From a virus: a DNA stretch of 27,642 nucleotides. The notes under the pieces were generated by a model. The model worked only from the letters and a program-made list of their open reading frames with translations. It was not told the origin of the DNA and made no database searches. Shown here piece by piece: positions 10,487 through 12,148 of the stretch. The stretch spans positions 1-27,642 of IMG/VR virus record IMGVR_UViG_3300021961_000489; one strand, 5' to 3'. Both the position numbers and the translations under genes were made by a program. Position 1 is the first letter of the stretch, and each line of letters starts with the position of its first letter.

Positions 10487-11277
10487 CCCATGGCCTCCAT
10501 GAGGGCGATCTGCTCCGCCGTGTACTTGCTGGTGTCAGGGGCGTGGCGTTGAGGCTGGGGTTGGTACGACTCCTTGGGCGGAAAGATTCCAGACCATCCG
10601 CTCGCCATGGAGTGGTCAACCGCAGACGGGAACGTAGCCGCCGTGAACTCTCTGGACCACTTCGTCAGTGCCGCTTTGAGTCCGGTCTGCTTGTAACCCT
10701 CGCGACGCTCCGACTTGTACTTCAGCCAGAGCTTCACGGCTTCGAGACAGTTCTCGGTCCGAAGGATCTCCGGCAACTCGATATCAAAGGCAACAACCCA
10801 AGGCGACTTATCTTGTTCCTTTCCTTGTTCCCTTCCCTTCCCTTCCTTATGGCACGCGTCGGTCACGCGAGGCTCACGCGTCACGCACGCGTCGGTCACG
10901 CGTTGAATATCTTCGGAAACTCCAATGATTTCGATGTTTTCCGCGGTAGGCTCTGGTATGTCTGAAGCCTTCTCCTTGTTGTTTATAACCTGATGTCGAA
11001 GGAAGCCCGGAATGTGTCCAAAAACACCCGTTCCCGACGCGTACTTCACGAGAAAGCCACGCGTGGTCAACGCGTCAAGCACGCGTGAAAAGTCCACGTT
11101 GTCGTAAGGCAGAATCTGGATCCCTAGACGCCTTGGCTCCCACTTGAAGCGTCCCTCCCTGTCAGCAGCACACCACAGGCCTGCGAACGCTACGCGTAAC
11201 GGCAACTGTTCCTCGATCTCAGCCTGATAGAGACCCTCATGCAGGAAGAACTCTGGCTTGATGGTTCGTATTCTCAT
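10483..11277 (-). CDS. Phage replication initiator-like protein
   Basis: A 264-residue protein upstream of DnaB. The N-terminus (MRIRTIKPEFFLHEGL, then LPLRVAFAGLWCAADREGRF) and the stretch around LPYDNVDFSRVLDAL and GHIPGFLRHQVINN match a family that I know from many phages as a winged-helix replication or DnaD-like protein acting with the helicase. The start at 11277 forms ATGA with the methyltransferase stop. The middle (residues about 125-160) is a variable hydrophilic linker (RVTDAC repeated, then KEGKGREQGKEQDK), and the DNA encoding it carries iteron-like repeats, as in the lambda O gene, where the origin lies inside the initiator gene. The C-terminal part probably contacts the helicase; that is inference. 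Confidence 0.8.
   Translation of the reverse strand: MRIRTIKPEFFLHEGLYQAEIEEQLPLRVAFAGLWCAADREGRFKWEPRRLGIQILPYDNVDFSRVLDALTTRGFLVKYASGTGVFGHIPGFLRHQVINNKEKASDIPEPTAENIEIIGVSEDIQRVTDACVTREPRVTDACHKEGKGREQGKEQDKSPWVVAFDIELPEILRTENCLEAVKLWLKYKSERREGYKQTGLKAALTKWSREFTAATFPSAVDHSMASGWSGIFPPKESYQPQPQRHAPDTSKYTAEQIALMEAMG
10811..10849 (-). repeat. Polypyrimidine/polypurine tract in the initiator gene
   Basis: About 39 nt of almost pure pyrimidine on the plus strand (built from TTCC and CCCTT units; purine on the minus strand), encoding a Lys/Glu/Gly/Gln linker. It adjoins the 17-bp repeats. Such tracts are strand-asymmetric and may unwind or form triplexes near origins. Confidence 0.5.
10853..10902. 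repeat. Iteron-like 17-bp direct repeats (candidate origin)
   Basis: CACGCGTCGGTCACGCG occurs exactly at 10853-10869 and 10886-10902, 33 bp apart. Each copy contains ACGCGT, and further ACGCGT hexamers lie at 10876, 10898, 11037, 11059, 11070, 11081 and 11192, nine in 344 bp. I notice only isolated copies elsewhere (for example near 4274 and 6080). Repeats inside an initiator gene next to a purine tract resemble the lambda-type origin. Confidence 0.55.
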
Positions 11278-12026
11278 TGGATTGATGTGACTAGAGTTTT
11301 CCATGCAAGGCGCACCACTGCTGGAACCTGACCGTTTCCGATGCATCGCATGCGGTCCACCCGATTGGCCACCCCATCAGCCACTCTAGCCACATGGGAT
11401 TCAGTGCCGATCTCTTGGTCCGCCGGGTCTCCGGAAGACCAAGGGACGCCATGCGCCTCGCGATTCGTCCACCCTTGTCTAGTTTGGCTAGGGATTCCCA
11501 TGAGACGTTGTTGTCCCTGCCCTCTGAGGCTACTGGGGTAGGCCAAGATCCAGATCCTATCCCTCTTGTGCGGCGCAGAGGTGTGGTCCGCTCCCACAAC
11601 TCCCCAGACCGCATCATACCCCAGCGCGGCAAGATCACCGAGGACCACGGCAAGTCCTCTGGAAACAAGGAGAGGGCTGTTCTCCACGAGGACGTATGAA
11701 GGTCGAACCTCACCGACAACCCTCGCCATGTGTTTCCACAGTCCAGATCGGCTGGCCTCAATTCCTCCACCTTTCCCGGCTGCGCTGATGTCTTGGCATG
11801 GAAAGCCTCCAGTGACGACATCCACCCGTCCAGACCATGGTCTCCCGTCGAATGTTGTGATGTCATCCCAGATCGGGAATGGTCTGAGACATCCGTCGTT
11901 CTGCCGTTCGATGAGCACCCGTCTTGCGTACTCGTCGATCTCAACGGCGCAGACGCATCTCCAGCCAAGCAGGTGACCGCCGAGAATTCCTCCTCCAGCG
12001 CCTGCGAACAATGCCAACTCATTCAT
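11274..12026 (-). CDS. DNA C5-cytosine methyltransferase (Dcm-like)
   Basis: A 250-residue enzyme that methylates cytosine using S-adenosylmethionine. Motif I is LALFAGAGGGILGG (4-17) with Glu29 as the cofactor acid; motif IV is GGFPCQDIS with catalytic Cys77; motif VI is ENSP (115-118, usually ENV); motif VIII is HKRDRIW (153-159); motif X is IGNGQVP (229-235). The target-recognition region between motifs VIII and X (about 165-215) is very short. AAGGAG stands only 3 nt before the ATG, which is tight. The stop overlaps the initiator gene in ATGA. It could protect phage DNA from restriction or mark the origin. A full-length second frame is nested in the gene (see the next entry). Confidence 0.9.
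   Translation of the reverse strand: MNELALFAGAGGGILGGHLLGWRCVCAVEIDEYARRVLIERQNDGCLRPFPIWDDITTFDGRPWSGRVDVVTGGFPCQDISAAGKGGGIEASRSGLWKHMARVVGEVRPSYVLVENSPLLVSRGLAVVLGDLAALGYDAVWGVVGADHTSAPHKRDRIWILAYPSSLRGQGQQRLMGIPSQTRQGWTNREAHGVPWSSGDPADQEIGTESHVARVADGVANRVDRMRCIGNGQVPAVVRLAWKTLVTSIQ
11291..12022 (-). CDS. Overlapping 243-codon ORF nested in the methyltransferase gene
   Basis: In the +1 frame of the methyltransferase gene an ATG four bases after the methyltransferase ATG (ATGAATGAG) opens 243 codons without a stop, ending 17 nt before the methyltransferase stop. The shared AAGGAG lies 7 nt before this second ATG, the better spacing. The product has no enzymatic motif but includes WMSSLEAFHAKTSAQPGK, LPRWGMMRSGELWERTTP, GSGSWPTPVASEG and ALNPMWLEWLMGWPIGWT. 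I recall these phrases from many phage proteins annotated as hypothetical or as methyltransferase-associated. The frame may be truly translated, or it may be only the conserved shadow of methyltransferase motifs (WPTP reads in the other frame as WI-L/V-A, and WLMGWP as VADGVA). I therefore give moderate confidence. Confidence 0.4.
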   Translation of the reverse strand: MSWHCSQALEEEFSAVTCLAGDASAPLRSTSTQDGCSSNGRTTDVSDHSRSGMTSQHSTGDHGLDGWMSSLEAFHAKTSAQPGKVEELRPADLDCGNTWRGLSVRFDLHTSSWRTALSLFPEDLPWSSVILPRWGMMRSGELWERTTPLRRTRGIGSGSWPTPVASEGRDNNVSWESLAKLDKGGRIARRMASLGLPETRRTKRSALNPMWLEWLMGWPIGWTACDASETVRFQQWCALHGKL

Positions 12027-12148
12027 CAACTCCTTGAACAAAAGCACCAACCCAACCAACCCCGGGTAGCGTAGGCACAACGAGGAAGCAGAAGATGCTC
12101 CTTGAAGCCTGCCGGGATTGGCTGGGTTGATGGTTCTGGGTTGTTCAT
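12026..12148 (-). CDS. Possible 40-residue leader protein before the methyltransferase
   Basis: A short frame (starts MNNPEPSTQPIPAGFKEH, ends WCFCSRS) that fills the gap before the methyltransferase and whose stop overlaps that ATG as TGATG. That is typical of translational coupling. The C-terminal half has a Trp/Cys-rich hydrophobic stretch. No Shine-Dalgarno directly precedes its ATG and I know no homologue. It may be a real micro-gene, a coupling leader, or chance. Confidence 0.35.
   Translation of the reverse strand: MNNPEPSTQPIPAGFKEHLLLPRCAYATRGWLGWCFCSRS

Follow-up and report, generated by a model that had tools for sequence, protein, structure and literature searches.

A phage C5-cytosine methyltransferase gene with a nested +1 frame: probable catalytic and recognition subunits from one stretch of DNA

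In the C5-cytosine methyltransferases (MTases) whose structures have been solved, motifs I-VIII and X belong to the large domain, and the target-recognition domain (TRD) and motif IX belong to the small one (PMC3404938). Some members of the family are divided between two polypeptides. M.AquI is split between motifs VIII and IX, with a large subunit that contains I-VIII and a small subunit that contains IX-X (PMC3404938). For M.EcoHK31I (YGGCCR; Lee, Kam and Shaw 1995), the account in the same source gives motifs I-VIII and X to the large polypeptide and only motif IX to the small one, and it assigns the predicted TRD to the large subunit (PMC3404938).

We analyzed a virus DNA of 27,642 nucleotides (IMG/VR record IMGVR_UViG_3300021961_000489, hereafter the window), which also carries terminase, RecT and exonuclease genes, and found a locus whose two nested frames of the same strand, judging from the sequence, very probably specify a single C5-cytosine DNA methyltransferase that is a heterodimer. 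Both frames are complete, lie on the minus strand and start 4 bases apart. The first, alpha, has 250 codons (12026-11274, with an ATG at 12026-12024 and a TGA stop at 11276-11274) and specifies the predicted large-domain subunit of 250 amino acids. The second, beta, is in the +1 frame and has 243 codons (12022-11291, with an ATG at 12022-12020 and a TAG stop at 11293-11291); its 243-residue product would be the small-domain subunit, with the target-recognition region and motif IX. The paired start codons form the string ATGAATG (12020-12026, minus strand), and the Shine-Dalgarno sequence AAGGAG (12030-12035, minus strand) is common to both frames, 3 nt upstream of the alpha ATG and 7 nt upstream of the beta ATG. 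An earlier sequence-only reading had described this nested frame and its shared Shine-Dalgarno, and we confirmed both the coordinates and the spacing. The ATG of the next gene overlaps the MTase stop codon (ATGA at 11277-11274). That gene encodes a replication-initiation protein and is followed by a DnaB-like helicase.

Alpha matches PF00145 with E=6e-31 (108.6 bits, cut-off 22) and also matches phrog_363. Motifs I, IV, VI and VIII occur in order, all on the minus strand: motif I, the AdoMet site, is FAGAGGG (11988-12008), catalytic motif IV is PCQ (11793-11801), and motif VIII is HKRDRIW (11550-11570). In motif IV, Pro 76 and Cys 77 are invariant and Gln 78 is conserved in at least 90%; Glu 115, Asn 116, Arg 155 and Arg 157 are invariant as well. 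The Pfam match reaches no further than residue 168, past motif VIII, and about 70 residues, largely disordered in the AlphaFold model, separate motif VIII from motif X (GNGQVP, residues 230-235; 11322-11339, minus strand). With pLDDT below 50 over most of residues 177-215, the model contains no folded recognition domain in alpha. The same reading had assigned all of the C5-MTase motifs to this frame, which is incorrect: I-VIII and X are present, and motif IX and the TRD are not in the same chain as the catalytic motifs. Alpha aligns with motifs I-VIII of the monomeric enzymes M.HhaI and M.HaeIII and is predicted to share their fold, the folded part of its predicted structure matching M.HhaI across I-VIII. 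In these two enzymes, unlike in alpha, a single chain also includes the TRD and motif IX.

Of the divided enzymes, M.EcoHK31I, which we compared by description only, is similar in having two polypeptides, and the window MTase would work like it, because motifs I-VIII and X are on the large polypeptide and IX appears to be on the small one. The small gene of EcoHK31I is reportedly nested in another frame of the large gene. The two differ in that the predicted TRD of M.EcoHK31I is on the large subunit, whereas the TRD position in the window is constrained in beta and not in alpha, and in that the window type is a widespread phage and prophage family with paired starts. M.AquI resembles some relatives of the window locus (L207, L343, L355 and L368) in which the small subunit has both IX and X. 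It differs from the window itself, where motif X is on alpha and the beta gene lies wholly inside the alpha gene. In PHROGs, the families matched by beta and alpha (phrog_1008 and phrog_363, respectively) are labelled only "DNA methyltransferase" and are not paired as overlapping subunits. A literature search that covered few subscription journals found no report of the phage family as nested subunits.

The +1 product and its putative motif IX

Beta matched phrog_1008 with E=7e-19 and had no match among Pfam and NCBIfam models. Phrases in its sequence had been linked, in the sequence-only reading, to a recurring phage protein family, and the PHROGs match bears this out.

The C-terminal end of beta has the motif IX pattern, LNPxWVEWLMGWPxGW (in the window LNPMWLEWLMGWPIGW, 11357-11404, minus strand), for which the counterpart in an ordinary MTase is LTPRECARLMGFPDTF. 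When beta was compared with 30 ordinary MTases by hhalign, the top local alignment fell exactly on motif IX and was not significant (E 0.15-0.39). The in-frame motif X match in beta relatives was also weak by profile (E 0.14). Motif IX on a second polypeptide is thus indicated by pattern and position, with a profile score that is weak by itself. The stretch between motifs VIII and IX, at the target-recognition position (11412-11549, minus strand), is constrained in the beta frame and not in the alpha frame, and the recognition region appears to lie in beta. It contains a WPTP motif in the beta frame (11534-11545, minus strand), of which relatives have zero to three strict copies.

Beta proteins in the alignment range from 207 to 320 amino acids and are longer in two relatives (L259, 3001-4212, and L101, 3001-4078), in which several WPTP-type units occur between motifs VIII and IX. 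Such multiple units are possibly modular recognition segments.

About 150 residues precede the recognition region of beta and are overprinted on the catalytic motifs. AlphaFold gave no confident fold for beta alone (pLDDT 56), a Foldseek fold search with beta returned nothing, and a search of solved structures found no relative. The beta proteins that carry both IX and X had no match in a Pfam scan. The N-terminal residues have no counterpart in known MTases, and this, together with the non-significant profile match to motif IX and the lack of a solved relative, could indicate a genuinely overprinted protein that has a separate function, such as regulation or anti-restriction, and is not the part that makes the MTase whole. 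We consider this unlikely, given that alpha is without motif IX and a recognition domain, that the C-terminus of the +1 product has the motif IX pattern in the right place and, in 13 relatives, in frame with motif X, and that the constraint on the recognition position, a variable stretch, is in the beta frame. With motif IX missing from the MTase frame and apparently supplied by the +1 product, the most likely role of beta is that of second subunit in this enzyme, not that of an overprinted protein unrelated to it.

Motif arrangement and start codons among the relatives

The arrangement of the window, with motif IX in the +1 frame and motif X in frame 0, is found in 338 phage and prophage loci. 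In 21 other loci, alpha closes after motif VIII and both IX and X are in the +1 frame. The LNPxWVEWLMGWP segment is followed by an in-frame motif X, typically RLKAIGNGQVP, in 13 distinct relatives, and in L368 the beta with IX-X has a gene of its own that lies 170 nt downstream of alpha. This architecture, with IX and X in one frame in related loci, is at the sequence level the deciding evidence for the putative motif IX of beta. A tree of the alpha core needs 2 to 9 changes for the movement of motif X between the frames. Mycobacteriophage Krili (L108, 1419-2370) has a version of the pair that overlaps only in part and in which gp6 and gp5 each bear the name DNA methylase: frame 0 closes after motif VIII, and from there the +1 frame goes on by itself.

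Both start codons, with that of beta 4 nt after that of alpha, are present in 201 of 232 relatives. A further 25 of the 232 keep only the beta start there, and their alpha would begin upstream. Where the relatives have a detectable Shine-Dalgarno of the AAGGAGG type, the commonest distance from its end is 4 nt to the alpha start and 8 nt to the beta start. Given the paired starts and this spacing, one initiation region can feed both frames. In the mechanism that we propose, one Shine-Dalgarno would load ribosomes, and initiation at either of the two start codons 4 nt apart would produce both subunits from one mRNA. Frame 0 would supply the large catalytic domain, in which motifs I-VIII, with the AdoMet and cysteine motifs among them, are joined by a disordered linker to motif X, and the +1 frame would supply the small domain, with the target-recognition region between VIII and IX and motif IX itself. 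We infer that both proteins are made, that they bind one another and assemble into an active enzyme, and that this enzyme probably protects the phage genome from host restriction.

The loci with IX and X both in the +1 frame could also produce a canonical enzyme by a single shift after motif VIII, as would be the case if programmed frameshifting fused the two frames into one polypeptide in place of two starts and two subunits. We rejected this explanation as very improbable. The alpha stops are scattered from 7 to 206 codons past motif VIII and share no sequence, which argues against a common frameshift site. In addition, beta keeps its own start 4 nt past that of alpha and is open through the whole N-terminal half, and a fusion in loci of the window type would be without motif X.

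A few relatives depart from the usual arrangement. In three divergent members from Pseudomonadota (L315, L320 and L336), the beta open frame begins well upstream of that of alpha, and the order of the starts may be reversed. The nearest relative of the window pair (L001, 3001-3744), with 74% identity in alpha and 70% in beta, has a TGA at alpha codon 108 and an intact beta. Single alpha nonsense codons with an open beta also occur in L146, L173 (where the stop is in the catalytic PCQ) and L193, and alpha is closed after 116 codons in L410. The interruptions of alpha in these loci could be caused by recent decay, by sequencing error or by retention of beta alone. The MTase of E. coli PCP07014 (L420, 2001-2762) is marked as a pseudogene, and its alpha and beta matches both stop near codon 122.

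Selection in the two frames

In the window gene alone, the +1 frame stays open in 1.3% of 20,000 synonymous codon shuffles that preserve alpha (P=0.013). Across 72 full-length relatives, selected by their MTase-frame peptides only and with the +1 frame disregarded, there were 3 interior +1 stops where synonymous shuffling predicts 330, with none in alpha codons 31-205 against about 216 expected. The sequence-only reading had named stops in the +1 frame of close relatives as evidence against a second gene, and they are nearly absent. Distant family members are similarly depleted (13 stops vs 52 expected). The +2 frame had 888 stops vs 824 expected in the 72 relatives, and we rejected it as coding. 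The shuffling null is calibrated, since neither 1077 neighboring genes (9644 observed, 9547 expected) nor 30 ordinary C5-MTases (547 +1 stops observed, 552 expected) showed any depletion or +1 opening; the shuffles ignore shared ancestry, which is addressed by the neighboring genes and by the independent pairs described below. Conservation of the +1 peptide is far above that in alpha-preserving shuffles, including residues of its N-terminal part.

Divergence at each codon position was compared in 32 independent pairs at 78-95% identity. Over motifs I-VIII, divergence at alpha positions 1, 2 and 3 was 0.105, 0.050 and 0.215, and the third base of alpha was the most divergent in all 31 decided pairs (31 to 0). 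Between VIII and IX the values were 0.411, 0.204 and 0.194. The fastest base there is alpha position 1, which is the third (wobble) base of beta, and it was the most divergent in 28 of 30 decided pairs (28 to 2). The window and L001 show the same wobble switch, with 0.18, 0.07 and 0.27 over I-VIII and 0.49, 0.30 and 0.14 over VIII-IX. Overlap-aware rates between VIII and IX were 1.06 for alpha (dNN/dSN) and 0.16 for beta (dNN/dNS), and the alpha rate over alpha residues 1-60 was 0.12. The sequence-only reading had also proposed examining synonymous sites for constraint. Over motifs I-VIII, changes silent in alpha occurred at 0.17-0.27 per site when they altered beta and at 0.8-1.0 when they did not; the equivalent rates in neighboring genes were 0.37 and 0.54. 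We did not trust the dNN/dNS ratio alone, because neighboring genes already give 0.77. Taken together, the wobble switch and these rates show the shared stretch to be dual-coding and assign the target-recognition position to beta. Ownership of the sequence thus switches along the gene at motif VIII, from alpha before it to beta between VIII and IX.

All distant phrog_1008 matches with a detectable +1 product overlap an MTase at +1. The sequence-only reading had asked whether every +1 hit overlaps an MTase; given enough upstream sequence, each lies on one or just beside one. Standalone +1 proteins far from any MTase were sought and none was found. In L351, L358 and L377, where no core was detectable, no more than about 135 nt separate the match from the end of the retrieved DNA; the match in L326 is weak and has four stops.

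The +1 frame is a genuine gene under selection. Of the two alternatives in the sequence-only reading, there is strong support for the first, in which start choice yields two proteins from the same DNA. The other, that the +1 family is only C5-MTase motifs read in another frame with nothing translated, could draw on the location of its matches over or beside MTases and on the part of +1 conservation that is forced by alpha, and it is excluded, with a probability close to nil, by the stop depletion, by the wobble switch at motif VIII, by the lack of a +1 opening in ordinary MTases and by the 21 loci in which IX and X continue in the +1 frame after alpha has closed.

Distribution and annotation

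Relatives were found in IMG/VR phages, in genomes (probably as prophages) of Pseudomonas, Acinetobacter, Pantoea and Nitrosomonas, in bins assigned to Phycisphaerae, Anaerolineales and Patescibacteria, and in phages of Salmonella, Acinetobacter, Vibrio, Klebsiella and Mycobacterium. They occur in 17 of 299 Pseudomonadota genomes and, at the sensitivity used, in 4 of 5426 E. coli genomes. We consider it probable that a catalytic domain in frame 0 and a recognition domain in frame +1 of one enzyme, with selective load passing between the frames along the gene and with two starts served by one Shine-Dalgarno, have persisted in hundreds of phages and prophages from many phyla.

The +1 family, for which Pfam and NCBIfam have no model, most likely supplies the half that is lacking in hundreds of phage "DNA cytosine methyltransferases". 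If so, an annotated MTase expressed by itself would be an inactive enzyme. A recognition domain in an overlapping frame would also bear on how phages change their methylation specificity. For the study of dual-coding selection, the pair offers two full-length nested genes of unusual length and conservation, and the cost of the overlap is directly measurable because each frame dominates a different segment.

Annotation takes one frame only, beta in phPA-G and Rctr197k and alpha in S9-5 and E. coli PT62. The prophage of E. coli PT62, a strain from a pigeon, has two MTases (L419, 1043-2029 and 4001-4738), both with the +1 beta profile, and RefSeq annotates only alpha for each of them.
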